From Candidatus Nanohaloarchaea archaeon (GTDB lineage: Archaea > Nanohalarchaeota > Nanosalinia > Nanosalinales > Nanosalinaceae), in the NCBI GenBank assembly GCA_014297435.1, contig JACOQA010000002.1:185961-249960 (forward strand): a stretch of 64,000 nucleotides of DNA, read 5' to 3'. Shown piece after piece: positions 41,248 through 50,033 of the stretch (the first letter of the stretch is position 1; each line of letters opens with the position of its first letter). The notes beneath the pieces were generated by a model. The model searched no databases and was not told where the DNA came from. It was given only the letters and a program-made list of their open reading frames with translations. Both the position numbers and the translations under genes were made by a program.

Positions 41248-43509
41248 ATGGTAATGGCTGTACAGGACAAGGACGTCTTTGATTACGAGTACGATGACGA
41301 GTCAGGAAAGATAGAGATAAACCTTCTAGGCTCGGTCTACGGCGCCTCAATCGAAGACTACCCCGAAGTAATGTCCCGAGTAATAAACATACTACAAGAA
41401 GTGCCCGAAGCAACCTCCGTAGTGCTATCAGAATCAAGGGACTACGAGTACGATCAGGAACAAGTACATCTGCTGAGAGAGATATCTAACGCAATAAGAG
41501 ACATATCCTCACAAGGGTACCTATCTCAAAGCGTCAGAACAGACAAATGTGAATCGCTTTACTCCGAACAACTTCCCGAAGTCCAGAGAATAGTTGTAGA
41601 CCAGTTAAGAAAAGATCCTGTCGGTGCATACGTACAGCTTAGAAGGAAAGAAAGACACCTAAAACAGCAGAGGAACGACTCGTATCCTCAGAGACAGCGC
41701 TGCATCAAATTCTTCATACAGGACGTAGTTAATCCGGTAAAAGATAGACTGGAGGAGTGCCAGCTTATCCAAGATGCGGTGAGAGAAGATTTTGTTACAG
41801 GCCACCATGTAGGCGACAGAGAAGTTTACAGAGAGTATTTCCATCCATTGGTTCGTCCTAACTTCATGCTTACGAAGTTCATGAGCTTGCCTCCGGAAAG
41901 AGGCAAAGAAGTAGACCGCTACACTGTTAAAGAGGATGTAGAGGTGTCGATCTACGAAGTGCCAGACCAGGTGCAGCCGGTTTACCATGTCGATCCTCCG
42001 GAGTTCAGTCTTCCGGAAGAGAAGTACCGCTTGCTGGATGCCGCAAGAAGATTCCTCGCCTCTCACCAGCCAGAGTCGGGGGAGTTCGCGAGACCGGAAA
42101 GAATGCGAGATGTATTCCAGAACATCGGGAGAGACATGATCCGTGATATCTCACAGCAGATGGACATACAGCTATCGGGAGAAGAAATGGAGGAAATGAC
42201 CTCAATACTAAACCGTTATACTTCCGGACTAGGCGTACTAGAGCTTTTACTTGCTGATCCAAAGATTCAGGATGTTTTTATCAACTCTCCTATCGGAAAC
42301 TCCCCTATCTACATCAAACACCAAGATTATGAGGAATGTGAGACTAATCTAATTCCTACGAAGGAAGAGGCGGAATCTTGGGCTACACGTTTCAGGATAA
42401 AGTCAGGAAGACCTTTAGACGAAGCTAACCCGGTACTTGACACAGAAGCAGAAGTGCCTGGCGGAAGAGCAAGAGTAGCAATTATACAGGAAAACCTTTC
42501 GCCGGAAGGATTAGCATTCGCGTTCAGAAGGCACAGATCGAAAGCATGGACGCTGCCATTATTCATACACGAAAACTTCATCAACTCTATAGGCGCAGCA
42601 TTACTATCGTTTATCGTGGACGGCAACAGATCGGTTCTTTTCGCAGGTACGAGAGGTGCGGGTAAAACGTCGCTCCTTTCAGCCTCGATGCTCGAATTAC
42701 TGAAAAAAGACAGAATTGTAACCGTTGAAGACACGTTAGAACTTCCTATAAGGCAAATGAAGGACTTGGGGTTCAACCTTGAGTCCATGAAATCTCGTTC
42801 GGTTATTACTCAGGTTGAGAATGAGTTGGCGGCTCAGGATGCGATCAGAACCTCTCTCAGACTAGGCGATTCGGCACTTGTTATTGGAGAGGTCAGATCG
42901 GATGAAGCTAAAACACTTTACGAGGCTATGCGTGTTGGAGCCGTTGCAAACTTTGTAGGAGGAACAATTCACGGAGAAGATGCTTACTCAGTATTTGACA
43001 GGGTTGTAAACGACTTGAACGTTCCGAAAACTTCATTCAAGGCAACAGATATTATTGTACAGGTAAACAAGATCCAGTCGCCAGACGGATTAGAAACTTA
43101 CAGAAGAGTCACCGGGATCACCGAGGTCAGGAAAGAGTGGACCGATGATCCTCAAGAGGAAGGAGCTTTCGTCGATCTGATGCGTTACGACTCGAACAAG
43201 GACGAGCTGGTCCCTACAGACACTTTGTTGAACGGAGAATCACTTATCCTGAACAGGATCGCCGAGAACATCCGCGAATGGAAGAACGACTGGGAGGCGG
43301 TCTGGAACAACATCCAGCTTAGAAAAGATATTAAGGAAGAGATCGTCAGAAAAGCCGAAGAGGAAGGAGAAGAATACCTAGAAGCAGACTTCACTGTAAA
43401 GGCAAATCAGAGATTCCACATTCTTTCGAACAAGGTAGGCGAAGAGTATGGAGGACAAGATCCGGAAAGAATTTTCGCCCGCTGGAAGGAATGGCTTAAC
43501 CAGCAGTAG
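41248..43509 (+). CDS. Type IV filament/secretion ATPase (PilB/TadA/FlaI superfamily)
   Basis: 753 aa. A long N-terminal domain (about 1-300, lineage-specific) precedes the GspE/VirB11-like ATPase. Walker A is GTRGAGKTSLL at about residue 469, followed by the Asp-box region TVEDTLELPIRQ, Walker B/His-box ALVIGEVRSDEA (about 548) and GGTIHGEDAYSV. This motor would power assembly of the pilin-like proteins encoded downstream. The C-terminal region with REWKND..VWNNIQLRKDIKEE is also lineage-specific. A second in-frame ATG is at codon 3. The platform protein gene follows directly. Confidence 0.92.
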   Translation: MVMAVQDKDVFDYEYDDESGKIEINLLGSVYGASIEDYPEVMSRVINILQEVPEATSVVLSESRDYEYDQEQVHLLREISNAIRDISSQGYLSQSVRTDKCESLYSEQLPEVQRIVVDQLRKDPVGAYVQLRRKERHLKQQRNDSYPQRQRCIKFFIQDVVNPVKDRLEECQLIQDAVREDFVTGHHVGDREVYREYFHPLVRPNFMLTKFMSLPPERGKEVDRYTVKEDVEVSIYEVPDQVQPVYHVDPPEFSLPEEKYRLLDAARRFLASHQPESGEFARPERMRDVFQNIGRDMIRDISQQMDIQLSGEEMEEMTSILNRYTSGLGVLELLLADPKIQDVFINSPIGNSPIYIKHQDYEECETNLIPTKEEAESWATRFRIKSGRPLDEANPVLDTEAEVPGGRARVAIIQENLSPEGLAFAFRRHRSKAWTLPLFIHENFINSIGAALLSFIVDGNRSVLFAGTRGAGKTSLLSASMLELLKKDRIVTVEDTLELPIRQMKDLGFNLESMKSRSVITQVENELAAQDAIRTSLRLGDSALVIGEVRSDEAKTLYEAMRVGAVANFVGGTIHGEDAYSVFDRVVNDLNVPKTSFKATDIIVQVNKIQSPDGLETYRRVTGITEVRKEWTDDPQEEGAFVDLMRYDSNKDELVPTDTLLNGESLILNRIAENIREWKNDWEAVWNNIQLRKDIKEEIVRKAEEEGEEYLEADFTVKANQRFHILSNKVGEEYGGQDPERIFARWKEWLNQQ

Positions 43510-43522
43510 GTGATAAGAGATC
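43508..43522 (+). promoter_or_regulatory. Shine-Dalgarno AGGTGAT positioned for an ATC start codon
   Basis: AGGTGAT (43508-43514) overlaps the ATPase stop, then 5 nt, then ATC 43520-43522. The spacing is the same as that before ATG 39266 and ATG 50011. No ATG, GTG or TTG occurs in this frame between the upstream stop (TAA 43514-43516) and ATG 43583. Confidence 0.5.
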
Positions 43523-45667
43523 GAAGACGAAGAACAAGAAAGGATAGAAGAGATTGTAAACGATCTTGACCGCGACCTAGAGATGCCGCCCTATGACGAA
43601 GGCTCTCAAAAAGGTTATTCCCGTGAATACAAGAACTATAAGGAGGACGAGGAGATAGAGAGGTCCAAGACAAGGTACGAAAGGCTTTGCGTCACTATGG
43701 CGTCGTATCTTAACTTGAAGGCGGAGGAAGATGCACAGGAAAAACTCTCTCCTCCACTAAGACTACTAGGTTGGGATATAACTCCAGGGATGGTTTTATC
43801 CGCCTCTGTAGGGGTCGGAATATCATCTTTCTTCGCTTGGTTCATGCTTTTCGCCATTAACATGGCTTTAGGCAATATAATTCCTTTCTCGATGATGATT
43901 ATTTCAGCTATCGTGCCTATCGGGGCAGGTGTTTACACATTCTACAAGCCTATCTACGCTGCCAAGAATAAGGTAATCCAGTCCTCAGGAGAAATGATTC
44001 TTTCCATACTCTACATGGTTATCTACATGCGTTCTTCTCCCAATATAGAGGGCGCTATACGCTTCGCAGCACTTAACCTGGATGGTCCGATTTCAAAAGA
44101 CCTGAAAGGTGTTTTATGGGATTTAGAAGTAGGTAACTACGCCAGGATAGAGGACTCGCTGGAAGACTATACTAAGGCGTGGAAGAACTATAATGATGAT
44201 TATCTCGAGTCTTTACAACTTTTGAGAGCTGCAACAAATGAACCTAACAAGGATAGAAGAGAAAGACTGCTTCAAGACTCAATTGACCGAATTTTAGATG
44301 GAACTCAGGAGAAGATGAAGCACTACGCCCAAGGCTTGAAGACTCCTGTCATGATTCTAAACGCTATGGGGGCTATGCTTCCGGTTCTAGGTATGATCAT
44401 GCTTCCTCTTATCTCAGTTTTCATGGGTGGTGCGATCACAGAAATGCACTTATTCCTCCTGTTCAACGTGATGCTTCCATCATTCCTCTACTGGTTCATG
44501 CAGAAGGTACTTAGTTCAAGACCTCCGACCGTAAGCTCTCAGCCAACCAGTAAGAACGATTTACCTGAGAGGGGAAAGTATCAAGTCGAAGTTTTGGGCA
44601 AGCAGCTAAAAGTTCCTACTTGGCCTATCGGACTTATAGTGTTTCTGACGGTAGGGATGTTCGGTTTTATAGGCTACCTGATCTTTCCTCACGTCTATCC
44701 AATCACAACTGAATTAGGGTATATTCCTGACCTATTCTCTACCGCCGGTGGAGAACCTAACTCTCTTATGATGCTGATGAGAAGCGTTTCGATAACGCTT
44801 GGTCTCGGTCTTGGAATTGGCATATCAAAGATACTAGGTAACAAAGCAAGAAAACAGGCTGAAGAACATTTGGAGAAGATTGAGGGTCAGTTCCCTACTG
44901 CGCTTTTCCAGCTAGGGAACAAGATTTCAGGGGGAACTCCTGCAGAGCTTGCTTTGGAGCAGGCAGCAGAATCAACCTCGGATCTGGAGATTTCAGGTCT
45001 TTTCCAGTACGCATCGAGAAACGTGAGGGACATGGGTATGACTTTCGAGGAATCTCTTTTCAGCGACAAGTACGGTGCTTTGAGGAAGTATCCTTCGAAG
45101 ATGATCAATACAGTTATGAGAGCCATACTCGAGTCCTCTGAAAAGGGTACTAAGATGGCTTCTATGGCGATGATGACAATCTCTCGTTATCTTGACAATA
45201 TTCACAAGACGCAGGAAGATCTCAACGATCTGATGGAAGAAACTACAACAACTATCCAGATGCTTGCCTATCTTCTAGCTCCTATTGTATCTGGTGTCGC
45301 GGTCGGTATGTCTCAAACGATTATTAATGCAATGTATAAGCTCAGTCAATCATTTAATCAGGCACAACAGAGCCTTCCTGATTCGGCTGCCGGTGGTGCA
45401 GGAGGGTCTGGTACAAGCTTTGGAGGGCTTATCAGTAATCTTGATACTGCTATTTCACCTGAAATCCTACAGTTTGTTGTGGGGATTTACTTGATCCAGT
45501 TGCTCTTTATTCTCTCAACGTTCTACATGAAGATTGAGCATGGAGAGAATATGACTTACAGAAACATGTTCATCGGAAAGGTACTTATTGTCGGAATGAT
45601 ATTCTATAGTGTAACCCTAGTGATTATTTCACTGCTCTTCGGAGGGATTGTCGCGAATGTGGCGTAA
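43520..45667 (+). CDS. TadC/GspF-type filament platform membrane protein (probable ATC start)
   Basis: About 715 aa, a duplicated type II secretion system F (TadC/FlaJ) protein. Two F domains can be seen, each a helical cytoplasmic bundle flanked by membrane helices: the first about residues 85-310, the second about 400-700, including GTPAELALEQAAES and YPSKMINTVMRAILESSEKGT. It partners the ATPase. The ORF track starts at ATG 43583, which has no ribosome-binding site. Extending 21 codons to ATC 43520 adds a charged, coding-like stretch (IEDEEQERIEEIVNDLDRDLE) and places the start exactly 5 nt from AGGTGAT. The 3' end overlaps the next mini-gene. Confidence 0.88.
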   Translation: MEDEEQERIEEIVNDLDRDLEMPPYDEGSQKGYSREYKNYKEDEEIERSKTRYERLCVTMASYLNLKAEEDAQEKLSPPLRLLGWDITPGMVLSASVGVGISSFFAWFMLFAINMALGNIIPFSMMIISAIVPIGAGVYTFYKPIYAAKNKVIQSSGEMILSILYMVIYMRSSPNIEGAIRFAALNLDGPISKDLKGVLWDLEVGNYARIEDSLEDYTKAWKNYNDDYLESLQLLRAATNEPNKDRRERLLQDSIDRILDGTQEKMKHYAQGLKTPVMILNAMGAMLPVLGMIMLPLISVFMGGAITEMHLFLLFNVMLPSFLYWFMQKVLSSRPPTVSSQPTSKNDLPERGKYQVEVLGKQLKVPTWPIGLIVFLTVGMFGFIGYLIFPHVYPITTELGYIPDLFSTAGGEPNSLMMLMRSVSITLGLGLGIGISKILGNKARKQAEEHLEKIEGQFPTALFQLGNKISGGTPAELALEQAAESTSDLEISGLFQYASRNVRDMGMTFEESLFSDKYGALRKYPSKMINTVMRAILESSEKGTKMASMAMMTISRYLDNIHKTQEDLNDLMEETTTTIQMLAYLLAPIVSGVAVGMSQTIINAMYKLSQSFNQAQQSLPDSAAGGAGGSGTSFGGLISNLDTAISPEILQFVVGIYLIQLLFILSTFYMKIEHGENMTYRNMFIGKVLIVGMIFYSVTLVIISLLFGGIVANVA

Positions 45668-45940: not shown

Positions 45941-45955
45941 AGGTGATTAGTGATT
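45941..45955 (+). promoter_or_regulatory. Shine-Dalgarno AGGTGAT before the first giant pilin-like gene
   Basis: AGGTGAT 45941-45947, spacer TAGTG, then ATT 45953. A GTG at 45950 is also possible but sits only 2 nt from the motif. The paralogous site at 48009 has GCG in place of this GTG. Confidence 0.5.
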
Positions 45956-47824
45956 ATAAAGCATATATTTGGTATTGCGGTGATGGTAATACTAGGATCA
46001 GCTCTTATGGGGTCACTTAACTCCATAAAGGTCAACTCTCTTGATCCGAGCGCTGAAAACACCTCGCAAACCATCGAGGAATTTGGTCGAGACAAGTCAG
46101 TTAGAATAGGTTGGGATGAGGAGGAAGAGGAAAAAACAACTCAAACTATTGCAAGGAAGCAATTTGAAGGTTTGTTGGTTTGGAATATGCTTGCAGCGAG
46201 CGATTGTATGTTACTTCAGGTTATAGATACAGGAAATACTAAAAGCACGCTAAACGATCTTAGAAAAGATGGAGATCCTGCTTATACAGGTTTTGGGGGT
46301 TTTGGACCTCTTCTAAGAACAGGTTTTGAAGGTAGGTGTGCGGAAGCGGATAGTGTAGGTTATCAGATAAAGAGGACTGCGTATAGTATGGCTAAAGTCC
46401 CACAGTTTAATGCAGAGAGAGTTGGTTCACCCGCACACGATATGGAAGGGAACTTTGGAAGAGTAGGTTTCAATGTTAGTGAGAGCTTTCATATCGATAC
46501 AAAGGGTGATAATGGCATCCTCTTAGGTTTCCACGGTAAATATGAATCGCCGGATTTAGTCAACCAGATTCAATCTATCTACTCAGATGTACAAGGTAAA
46601 GACAATCTACCTGATTTCTGGATAGCCCAAAGAGCTTCAATAATAATACCTCCGAATTTAGCGCCTTCGGGAAGTAGAACTTCTGTTTTTAAGCTGTATC
46701 ATAGAGAGGGGGAAAACAGTGAATCGCTCATAAATTTTGATGGTGTATTCAATGGCTTTGGATATACGGATAATCCTAAAGGTCACAAGCTATATGCATG
46801 GAGACCTTCGGCGCATGAAGTGCCATGGGTTTTCGAGAACCAGAGAGGTCTCCATTCTATTGATGTAAACAACGGAGAGACGATGCTGGATACAGCACTA
46901 AGAAGAGGAGAGTGGCATTTCTGTGAGGGTGCTGAAGGACAAATAATAAGCAAAGCAAGATCCTTTTCCAACACGGGAGAGGCGTCCGGTAATAATCCGA
47001 AAAAAGAGGACTCGGTTTTCCCAAAGATAACACTTTTTGATCCTGGAGAGGGTGACGGATGTGAGCCTGGAGGTCCTGAGGGTTTCCCTGAGCGTGTAAC
47101 CACTAGTAGTTCTTACCAGGATACAATATCGTGCTCTAGACAGGAAGCTGCGAATAAAAAGATCCCTGAGGGTAGTAGAACACTTCTAGGATATGATGGG
47201 CAAGAAAAAATGTTTGTAGGTTATGGTTGCGGTCTTCAAGAGCATAATTTTGATTTTGGAAGCCATGATTTTAACAGAAATAACCACTATGATGGAGAAG
47301 TAACTTTCTATACGCCTGCGGTCTATAGTTCATGTTCTTACAATCATAAATGGTACAATGTTCTTCCTCTAAAAGACGGTATCGCTCCTGAGGATGAAAA
47401 AACTCTCAAAGCTGGTGAAGCAGTTAATTTTGATCTAAATGAGCATAATGAGATAAAAAAACTTCAAATAACGTTTGAAAAAAGAGATGGTGCGGACTTA
47501 GATGTTTCAATGGGAGAGAAAAAAATCTCAATAAACTCTTCTAATAACAAAGCTGGGGTTGCTGAGGACTCGACATCAATTGAAGGCGGATATGATACGG
47601 GCGTATATGAATTAACATATCGGCGTGAAAGCGCAGTTGGTATCCCTGGAGGCGAAGATGCTTCGTCAGGTAAACTCATACTTCGTGCTGAATCTGGGGA
47701 GGCCAATAGAAAGGTTTTCCTTTCGACAGGAGTATATGATATAAACTCGGTTGAAGTAAATGCTGATTCGGGTCAAGTATCTTTGAGAGATGTAAGTCTC
47801 TATTCTTATCCTACTCAATGTTGA
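45950..47824 (+). CDS. Giant pilin-like/adhesin protein, paralog 1
   Basis: 624 aa. A single N-terminal hydrophobic helix (IIKHIFGIAVMVILGSALMG) is followed by NSIKVNSLDP and a large extracellular part with conserved Cys, Trp and Gly (QFEGLLVWNMLAASDCMLL, ASGNNPKKEDSVFPKI, YGCGLQEHNFDFG, KRDGADLDVSMG). The first helix is like a pilin stalk, and the size suggests a tip or major surface subunit. The start is either GTG 45950 or, by comparison with its paralog and by Shine-Dalgarno spacing, ATT 45953. No known domain recognised. Confidence 0.7.
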   Translation: MIIKHIFGIAVMVILGSALMGSLNSIKVNSLDPSAENTSQTIEEFGRDKSVRIGWDEEEEEKTTQTIARKQFEGLLVWNMLAASDCMLLQVIDTGNTKSTLNDLRKDGDPAYTGFGGFGPLLRTGFEGRCAEADSVGYQIKRTAYSMAKVPQFNAERVGSPAHDMEGNFGRVGFNVSESFHIDTKGDNGILLGFHGKYESPDLVNQIQSIYSDVQGKDNLPDFWIAQRASIIIPPNLAPSGSRTSVFKLYHREGENSESLINFDGVFNGFGYTDNPKGHKLYAWRPSAHEVPWVFENQRGLHSIDVNNGETMLDTALRRGEWHFCEGAEGQIISKARSFSNTGEASGNNPKKEDSVFPKITLFDPGEGDGCEPGGPEGFPERVTTSSSYQDTISCSRQEAANKKIPEGSRTLLGYDGQEKMFVGYGCGLQEHNFDFGSHDFNRNNHYDGEVTFYTPAVYSSCSYNHKWYNVLPLKDGIAPEDEKTLKAGEAVNFDLNEHNEIKKLQITFEKRDGADLDVSMGEKKISINSSNNKAGVAEDSTSIEGGYDTGVYELTYRRESAVGIPGGEDASSGKLILRAESGEANRKVFLSTGVYDINSVEVNADSGQVSLRDVSLYSYPTQC

Positions 47825-47945
47825 GGTAAGATGTTTTCTAAGAGTCATTAACCTATAAATTCAAAGATTAAGAACTTTCATTATATGTATAAATCTCTCA
47901 AAACTGTTAGCCTGGCAACCTCAAAACATAATTATGGTCGCCTTT

Positions 47946-48005
47946 ATGAAAGTAAGAGGAGTGAGATACGATTCTAATAGATTCTGCCGGTTTTGAGACA
48001 GTTTC
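47946..48005 (+). pseudogene. Possible remnant of a duplicated small pilin gene
   Basis: Before the second giant paralog, ATGAAAGTAAGAGGAGTGAG resembles the beginning of the small pilin gene at 45758 (ATGAAAAGGAAAGGGATGAA), and CCGG...CAGTT..TAGAGG resembles its 3' end; most of the middle is missing. This fits a duplication of a pilin plus giant-gene block with decay of the small gene. The similarity is short and judged by eye. Confidence 0.25.
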
Positions 48006-48008
48006 TAG

Positions 48009-48023
48009 AGGTGATTAGCGATT
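48009..48023 (+). promoter_or_regulatory. Shine-Dalgarno AGGTGAT positioned for an ATT start codon
   Basis: AGGTGAT 48009-48015, spacer TAGCG (5 nt), then ATT 48021-48023. No GTG is possible here because the paralog's GTG is GCG. The next in-frame ATG is ten codons later, inside the hydrophobic helix. A TATAAAT word at 47888-47894 may drive this gene. Confidence 0.55.
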
Positions 48024-50033
48024 ATAAAGCATATATTTAGTATAGCGGTCATGGTAATACTTATTTCGTCGTTTATGGCTGTGCTTAACTCTATAAAAGT
48101 AGAATCATTCGATCCGGCTACAAACAACGCATCCTCAACGATAGAGGATTTTGGAAGAGATAAATTCATTGAAATAGGTAGAGATACTACCTTAAATGAT
48201 GGTAATGGTGAGATAAAAGATGATTCCCAATTCGCAAAAAGGCAGTTTGAGGGTTTGTTGGTTTGGAATATGCTTGCAGCGAGCGACTGTATGTTGCTAC
48301 ATATAATTGAGAACAATAACCCTGAATTACACCTAAAACACCTCAGAGATAACAAAGAAACAGGTTATGTAGAGTTCTTCGGCTGGTCAGAACTGAAGAA
48401 GGCAGATTTCGATATGACCTGCGCACAGGCAGGAAGTATAGGATTCGAAGTAAATAGGCAAAGCCCCACAACTATAATTACTATGGATGCAAAAAGGGCA
48501 GCTCAACCAGGAAAGGACATGGAGGGCAACTTTGGTAAAACACGGTTTAATATAAGCAAAAGCTTCAGTATAGATTCATTAGGAGATGACGGTATTCTAT
48601 TAGGCCTTAAGACGAAATTTGAGGAAGCAGGGGCTTTAGATGCGGCTTTTGGCGAATTGGAAGTATTTGATTCGGGTCCGGACTCGGCGAACATGCCCGA
48701 CTTCTGGGCGGGTCAAAGGGTTTCGGTTCTCCGGCCTCCAAGCCTAGATCCAATGAACTATGGAGATTTGTATAACCGCCATATGTACATGATACATCCT
48801 AGTACAGATAATAATAACAAGGAAGACAGGGCAGGCTATCTCCATTTCGGTTCACAGTTCAATGATTTTGGCTATACAAATGATCCTGTAGCTTATAAGT
48901 TCTCAGCGTGGCGTCCTTCAGTGCACGATGGGACTTGGGTCTTTGCTAATGGTAGGTCGCCTCATAAAATTAAGAAGGATCTCTCTGTAGGTGATGGTGA
49001 AAGAACAGGTCGAAAAGTGCTTATAAACTCAATAAAGAACGGAGAATGGGTTTTCTGTAAAGGAATGGAGGGATATGTTATTTCGAAAGCTCAAAGGTTC
49101 AGTAACCTAGGAGAGGCGTCCAGTAATAACCCGAAAAAGGAGGATACAGTTCTACCTAAAATTCAGATAACTGAGCCGGGAAATGGCACTAACTGTCAAG
49201 AGGGCGGGCCTGATGGTTTCAACGAGTTCGTTGGCCATCAAAGTAAGATTAATAGAAATGGAGTAGAATTTAGCTGTAGTAGACTACAAGCGGCGAACAA
49301 AAAAATAACGGATAAAGAAGCCTTAAAAACTGAAATAGGTAAGCAAGATGGAGAAATGCAGTATTTAACTTATGGGTGTGGTCTAACACAACATACTTTT
49401 GATTTTAACGATTTTGAATGGTCTGGAGTTACTGTAACGGTTTCAGAGACTGGTCAAGGCTCTACACGTGAAACGCGTGCGGGTCAGCATTATCAGGGTG
49501 CGATGACTTACTATACTCCGGGAATGTGGAAGAGCTGTCCGTCCGGTTATGAGAACTATGAAATTCTCTCACTAAAAGACAATCTCGGTGAAAATGGCTA
49601 CAAAGAACTTGGCGGCGGTGATAACTCGATAAGTTTTGGGAACGACCAATTTAGTAATATTCAAGGCGTCGAAATTATTTACGAAAAAAGAGATGGTGCT
49701 GAACTTGAGCTCGATATAGGCGGTCAGACCATCTCTGTGGAATCTTCGGGTTCTAACTCGCCAGGAAAACTTTCTATAGGTTCCAACACGGATGAGTTAG
49801 ATGTTAGCTACGAAACAGGTGTTTATATGCTTGACTTGGTCTCATTCGATGGAATCGCTGGAGGCGACGGTTCTAACTCTGCCTCCCTCATAGAAGAGGG
49901 AGGGGAAGGTCAAGGTATAGGAGCTATGGGAGCTGACTACAACAATATTGAATCATTTGATATTACCAAGCAAGGTTCAGGTGAAATCATTTTGAGGGAG
50001 GTGAGAGTAGATGCAAAGCCCACAGAGTGCTAG
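48021..50033 (+). CDS. Giant pilin-like/adhesin protein, paralog 2 (probable ATT start)
   Basis: About 670 aa from ATT 48021 (IIKHIFSIAVMVILISSFMA), aligned residue for residue with the N-terminus of paralog 1. The ORF track start at ATG 48051 would cut the hydrophobic helix in half and leave the Shine-Dalgarno unused. The ectodomain shares blocks with paralog 1: QFEGLLVWNMLAASDCMLL, EASSNNPKKEDTVLPKI, TYGCGLTQHTFDF and EKRDGAELELDIGG. Between blocks the two differ strongly, consistent with diversification of exposed loops. The 3' end overlaps the next small pilin gene. Confidence 0.7.
   Translation: MIKHIFSIAVMVILISSFMAVLNSIKVESFDPATNNASSTIEDFGRDKFIEIGRDTTLNDGNGEIKDDSQFAKRQFEGLLVWNMLAASDCMLLHIIENNNPELHLKHLRDNKETGYVEFFGWSELKKADFDMTCAQAGSIGFEVNRQSPTTIITMDAKRAAQPGKDMEGNFGKTRFNISKSFSIDSLGDDGILLGLKTKFEEAGALDAAFGELEVFDSGPDSANMPDFWAGQRVSVLRPPSLDPMNYGDLYNRHMYMIHPSTDNNNKEDRAGYLHFGSQFNDFGYTNDPVAYKFSAWRPSVHDGTWVFANGRSPHKIKKDLSVGDGERTGRKVLINSIKNGEWVFCKGMEGYVISKAQRFSNLGEASSNNPKKEDTVLPKIQITEPGNGTNCQEGGPDGFNEFVGHQSKINRNGVEFSCSRLQAANKKITDKEALKTEIGKQDGEMQYLTYGCGLTQHTFDFNDFEWSGVTVTVSETGQGSTRETRAGQHYQGAMTYYTPGMWKSCPSGYENYEILSLKDNLGENGYKELGGGDNSISFGNDQFSNIQGVEIIYEKRDGAELELDIGGQTISVESSGSNSPGKLSIGSNTDELDVSYETGVYMLDLVSFDGIAGGDGSNSASLIEEGGEGQGIGAMGADYNNIESFDITKQGSGEIILREVRVDAKPTEC

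Follow-up and report, generated by a model that had tools for sequence, protein, structure and literature searches.

The 64-kb window analyzed here, the whole stretch of DNA under study, is part of a 1.0-Mb nanohaloarchaeal metagenome assembly (G000). At 41-50 kb it carries a type IV pilus-like operon encoding, in order, a T2SSE ATPase, a T2SSF platform protein, two small hydrophobic ORFs and two tandem paralogs of 600-670 residues, each with an N-terminal helix (Table 1). The paralogs had been described as giant pilin-like, a label upheld by their synteny with the T2SSE and T2SSF genes (a gene order that is the same in relatives) and by the N-terminal hydrophobic helix, but not by a Pfam search of both proteins, which matched no family. 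Inspection of IIKHIFSIAVMVIL by eye revealed no K/R-G cleavage site ahead of the helix such as a class III signal peptide would have. Paralog 2 was found in none of the named genomes searched, and the search of 60 relatives returned distant homologs only. An Rfam scan of the window returned tRNAs only. The 5′ leader of paralog 2 (window positions 47891-48010) contains inverted repeats with 14-nt arms (CTCAAAAC / GTTTTGAG); when a regulatory RNA structure was sought 5′ of paralog 2, the predicted fold was no better than shuffled sequences (z -0.24).

Table 1. Genes and putative translation-start features of the pilus-like operon, in window coordinates
Feature	Positions	Strand	Basis or remark
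SD AGGTGAT of T2SSF platform gene	43508..43514	+	sequence
Putative ATC start of T2SSF platform gene	43520..43522	+	ATG/GTG/TTG at or one codon from the column in 11 relatives
T2SSF-family pilus platform protein	43520..45667	+	N-terminus 21 residues longer than canonical ORF 43583-45667
SD AGGTGAT of paralog 1	45941..45947	+	sequence
GTG usually called as paralog 1 start	45950..45952	+	core spacing 6, outside the family SD window
Probable ATT start of paralog 1, aligned with the ATT of paralog 2	45953..45955	+	core spacing 9, paralog comparison
Paralog 1	45953..47824	+	protein 39% identical to paralog 2
Shine-Dalgarno (SD) GAGGTGAT of paralog 2	48008..48015	+	8-nt match to anti-SD complement; core-to-ATT spacing 9
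In-frame TGA, rules out an upstream start	48012..48014	+	sequence
GCG where paralog 1 has GTG	48018..48020	+	sequence, paralog alignment
ATT, proposed paralog 2 start codon	48021..48023	+	SD, spacing, paralog comparison
ATG, the first canonical start; within the helix, without SD	48051..48053	+	sequence, ORF list
Paralog 2	48021..50033	+	670-codon protein, N-terminal helix, without Pfam family

The preliminary description proposed that paralog 2 starts at an ATT codon, and reading of the sequence confirmed the layout on which it drew: AGGTGAT at 48009-48015 is followed after 5 nt by ATT 48021-48023, and GCG replaces the GTG of paralog 1. Because the in-frame TGA closes the frame upstream, the first ATG, GTG or TTG is ATG 48051, and the ORF listing of paralog 2 runs only from there; as claimed, no standard start precedes the helix, and ATG 48051 itself lies within the helix. 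The codons after ATT 48021 are ATA AAG CAT ATA TTT AGT ATA GCG GTC ATG, and the N-terminus of paralog 1 does align here: the ten codons upstream of ATG 48051, counted from the ATT, are conserved, the first six being identical even at silent sites. Initiation at ATG 48051 to give a protein with a shortened N-terminus is very unlikely: no canonical start precedes this codon in frame, but it has no SD, it would discard ten codons conserved with the paralog, and it would remove approximately half of the hydrophobic helix together with all of the positive residues before it. Family homologs of the pilin-like gene in other genomes begin some residues before the membrane helix, which also indicates that a start at ATG 48051 would cut the helix.

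Comparison of the two paralogs showed that 32 of 33 bases are the same between 48006-48038 and the corresponding region of paralog 1, and that the sole difference is the T/C that decides between GTG and GCG. Two exact copies of AGGTGATNNNNNATT are present in the window, one at each paralog (0.16 occurrences expected), and a search of the whole genome for further copies of the start block returned these two only. Paralog 1 has the same AGGTGAT-5 nt-ATT layout, with its GTG sitting 2 nt after AGGTGAT, which corrects the preliminary description. Orthologs were too divergent for a column-exact match and only the paralog aligned; since paralog 2 was found in no close strain, conservation of ATT 48021 is that between the two paralogs.

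Nucleotide identity of the paralogs is 54% overall and 90% over the first 14 codons. A second near-identical DNA block covers codons ~70-87 (FEGLLVWNMLAASDC; window 46160-46220 and 48240-48300) and could reflect either gene conversion or strong constraint. The existence of just two copies, with the first 14 codons and codons ~70-87 much more alike than the rest in a way that gene conversion could produce, would also fit a paralog 2 that, having lost its start codon, is now silent or decaying and may act as a recombination donor to paralog 1. We regard this as very improbable, as paralog 2 retains an intact SD and 670 open codons with coding-type hexamers (score 170) despite divergence to 39% identity, whereas stops would be expected in a copy that had long been unexpressed.

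To place these codons relative to the SD, spacing was defined as the distance from the SD core (the last G of the GGAGG equivalent, or the AGG core) to the start codon, and for the first measurement genes were called on the whole assembly. A motif search of the G000 contigs did not find a 16S 3′ end, and this assembly probably lacks the rRNA operon; the anti-SD was therefore the literature sequence for Nanohaloarchaea (UCACCUCC; PMC10783764) rather than that of the assembly's own 16S. Three genomes, G000 and two relatives, supplied 853 conserved canonical starts that align between two of them, and the spacing of these had a mode of 9-10 nt. Of the 132 with an SD of at least 6, 71 had a spacing of 9 or 10, 98 one of 7-11 and none one of 6, figures obtained with simple gene calls and SD scan thresholds of our own choosing. 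The ATT lies at core spacing 9 in both paralogs and the GTG of paralog 1 at 6. If paralog 1 started at that GTG, the one base free to vary in the conserved block would be position 2 of the start codon itself. It is simpler to read the one-base difference as meaning that ATT starts both paralogs; the shared ATT and the short spacing of the GTG argue that paralog 1, too, probably starts at ATT 45953 and not at GTG 45950. The same measurements bear on the idea that both paralogs start at GTG and that the GCG of paralog 2 reflects a sequencing error, an assembly error or a minor variant. The two codons differ by a single T/C and base 48019 is the consensus of a metagenome assembly, but a GTG here would have the core spacing of 6 that none of the 132 conserved starts with an SD of at least 6 displays, and we consider an error or variant of this kind very improbable.

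A scan of G000 for a strong SD followed at the right distance by a non-canonical codon (SD-first) returned ATT at paralog 2, at metG and at a small pilin-like gene, as well as the T2SSF gene of the same operon with ATC; other codons were also returned. Of 19 family genomes, 16 (one of them G000) have a match to the T2SSF gene. The column of ATC 43520 holds ATG in six relatives (G014, G013, G004, G007, G018, G006), GTG in G011 and TTG in G016 and G005, while TTG lies one codon off the column in G015 and G009. CTG occupies the column in G008 and G003, where both frames extend further upstream to an ATG. On this alignment the T2SSF gene would begin at ATC 43520, 21 codons upstream of its first ATG (43583), so that standard callers would truncate the protein by 21 residues.

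The metG gene provided the widest comparison. In G000, metG has an ATT start after AGGTGA (L062:1970-4042; contig C10, 41970), and AGGTG followed by ATT or ATC at core spacing 8-11 was found in 15 of the 18 family genomes that have metG (ATT in G000, G002, G003, G004, G006, G010 and G013; ATC in G001, G007, G009, G011, G012, G014, G015 and G017). This codon directly precedes the conserved TSALPY...HLGN region. Its third base varies between T and C across these genomes and its first two are unchanged, the pattern expected if the codon is a genuine start whose weakness is maintained. The start is canonical in G016 (ATG) and G005 (GTG). The metG of G008 (JALDAJ010000001.1; L072 / L174 ~1485-1512) has no canonical start, with ATC at spacing 3 and TTC at 9; it is not accounted for by an AUU/AUC model and counts against it. 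A pattern search for the metG SD with ATT/ATC matched 14 family genomes and none of nine genomes from other families of the order, and the same pattern with ATG, GTG or TTG was absent from all 28 genomes. Among metG loci of named genomes in which the motif was found, 58 of 61 have a canonical start nearby; the exceptions are the family members G008 and G007 and one spurious motif match. At these named-genome loci the metG start is canonical outside the family, and it is from metG only that AUU/AUC starts are read as limited to the family. Missing the metG ATT/ATC start leaves MetRS 81 residues short, with the HIGH region included in the loss.

An SD-blind test was performed on 1849 ortholog pairs from the whole of G000 and G008 and from 557 kb of G004. 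The canonical start column of each ortholog was projected onto the query gene, and queries were kept if they had no canonical start at the column or in the next eight codons. The scan was restricted to filtered genes, as an unfiltered scan was swamped by antisense frames. The codons at the projected column were ATT in eight rows, ATC in two and other codons in nine. One of these nine is the codon neighbouring the ATC start of the RFC gene, reached via a different ortholog; the remaining eight, without an SD in the query, look like chance alignment extensions. All seven distinct genes with an SD of at least 5 at spacing 7-11 carry ATT or ATC, and against a codon background of 3-4% for ATT and ATC combined this is not chance (~1e-10 if independent). 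Such a well-placed SD accompanies 7 of the 8 distinct ATT/ATC genes versus 21% of canonical starts (P ~1e-4).

These eight genes, named from Pfam with one exception, are in G000 the T2SSF gene (ATC), a DUF7266-like pilin (ATT; TTG in G008) and a RimK-like gene (ATT; ATG in G008). Those in G008 are an RFC-like clamp loader (ATC; ATG in G000), a second T2SSF gene (ATT; GTG in G000 and G004) and a gene that is presumably a dihydrolipoamide dehydrogenase-like lpd (ATT; ATG in G000). In G004 they are an AAA/NMP-kinase-like gene (ATT; ATG in G000 and G008) and one ATT/ATC gene without an SD. The ATT/ATC codon aligns with the canonical starts of orthologs in the T2SSF, DUF7266-like, RimK-like, RFC and lpd genes and in others, and the SD-first and ortholog-first designs agree. 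A wider list of genes with an SD of at least 5 adds weaker cases: in a G000/G004 pair both members carry ATC/ATT, an A-type ATPase subunit I has ATC, and ATA occurs once in G004. Genes started with ATT or ATC repeatedly turn out to be pilus genes. A second pilus cluster with ATT starts includes a 343-aa T2SSF protein in G008 (L130:13371-14399) and a KGQ..VE pilin-like protein in G000 (L027:10602-10994).

Judged from these alignments, the ATT of paralog 2 is part of a family-wide habit and not a one-gene curiosity. As other genes of G000 and of other assemblies (the assemblies are for the most part metagenomic) use ATT or ATC, no sequence error is needed to explain the GCG of paralog 2. At a rough estimate, AUU/AUC starts occur in ~0.5-1% of conserved genes with comparable N-termini. 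Taken together, the tests that were run favour ATT and support ATT initiation as the best explanation for paralog 2.

We therefore propose, with considerable confidence, that translation of paralog 2 would start at ATT 48021 through SD-held AUU initiation with Met-tRNA, in a lineage that tolerates AUU and AUC. In this model the strong SD GAGGUGAU, at the best spacing, would fix the 30S subunit with AUU placed in the P site, and the ordinary initiator Met-tRNA (anticodon CAU) would accept AUU despite the third-base mismatch. The protein would then begin with methionine and be made at a reduced rate; both of these features, like any regulatory value of the start, are inferred, whereas the sequence layout, the spacing figures, the ortholog alignments at the start column and the codon specificity are observed. 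More generally, this lineage of nanohaloarchaea may tolerate AUU, AUC and perhaps AUA as rare starts when the SD is strong, a well-placed SD holding AUU or AUC in the P site long enough.

Archaeal start selection relies on aIF1, aIF1A and aIF2 (PMC7531240), and aIF1 discriminates against non-canonical codons (PMC6237735). Relaxed selection through loss of aIF1 was rejected, as a search for aIF1 (SUI1) was positive in 56 of 60 genomes, most family members among them. An unusual initiator tRNA was likewise rejected: one CAU tRNA with a GGG/CCC anticodon stem was found, and it is ordinary. With aIF1 present and the initiator tRNA normal, tolerance is favoured over a loss of fidelity.

AUU initiation had been described as rare and known in bacteria from infC; this was borne out, with pcnB and cvfC1 as further cases. 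The infC gene (IF3) resembles the starts described here in its AUU/AUC/AUA codon, strong SD and conservation over wide distances; it begins with ATT in E. coli, ATC in Streptomyces (PMC5472188) and AUA in S. aureus (PMC13009471). However, infC is bacterial and autoregulated by IF3, whereas the conserved gene here is metG and archaea use aIF1. Autoregulation of aIF1 by an AUU/AUC start of its own, as in infC, was rejected because aIF1 starts with ATG in three genomes. In E. coli an inefficient AUU start limits translation of pcnB (cited in PMC9410913), but this is a single gene in one bacterium, in contrast to several genes per nanohaloarchaeal genome. S. aureus cvfC1 (AUU) and ccpN (AUA) share with the present cases a non-canonical start coupled to an extended SD at suitable spacing and conserved between species (PMC13009471). 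The coupling of a weak AUU/AUA codon to an extended SD was shown experimentally for these bacterial genes, by ribosome profiling and reporters (PMC13009471), while the nanohaloarchaeal starts are proposed from sequence. By analogy with infC, pcnB, cvfC1 and ccpN, a lower yield would be expected from AUU/AUC starts. Finally, the annotated GTG of Streptomyces sigR was doubted for lying inside the SD and the true start is further on (PMC5472188), a situation similar to that of paralog 1; the sigR start is GTC, and the system differs in using GTC/GTT rather than ATT/ATC, in being repressed by IF3 and in having been proven experimentally.

A family-wide set of archaeal AUU/AUC starts appears to be new, as none was found in the literature searchable for this analysis. 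The archaeal start codons given in a recent review are AUG, GUG and UUG (PMC7531240), and a reconstruction over 36 prokaryote triplets recovered a change from AUG to AUU in only 1 of 61,358 ancestral AUG starts (PMC5622118). Because gene-finding programs as a rule accept no start codons other than ATG, GTG and TTG, AUU/AUC starts are missed and proteins are cut short.

The family-wide metG is the best candidate for regulation by a weak start. MetRS is the enzyme that charges the initiator tRNA, and one tentative possibility, which we think less probable than its absence, is that the family has a standing class of AUU/AUC-started genes in which selection maintains the metG start for control, MetRS synthesis being throttled or tuned by a start codon with a strong response to aIF1 or to the amount of initiator Met-tRNA complex. 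If true, this would give archaea an equivalent of the infC circuit. With approximately half a dozen AUU/AUC starts per small genome and a metG fixed on AUY, these organisms would offer a natural system for studying archaeal start selection with aIF1, and the same lineage would suit the question of whether weak starts serve regulation.
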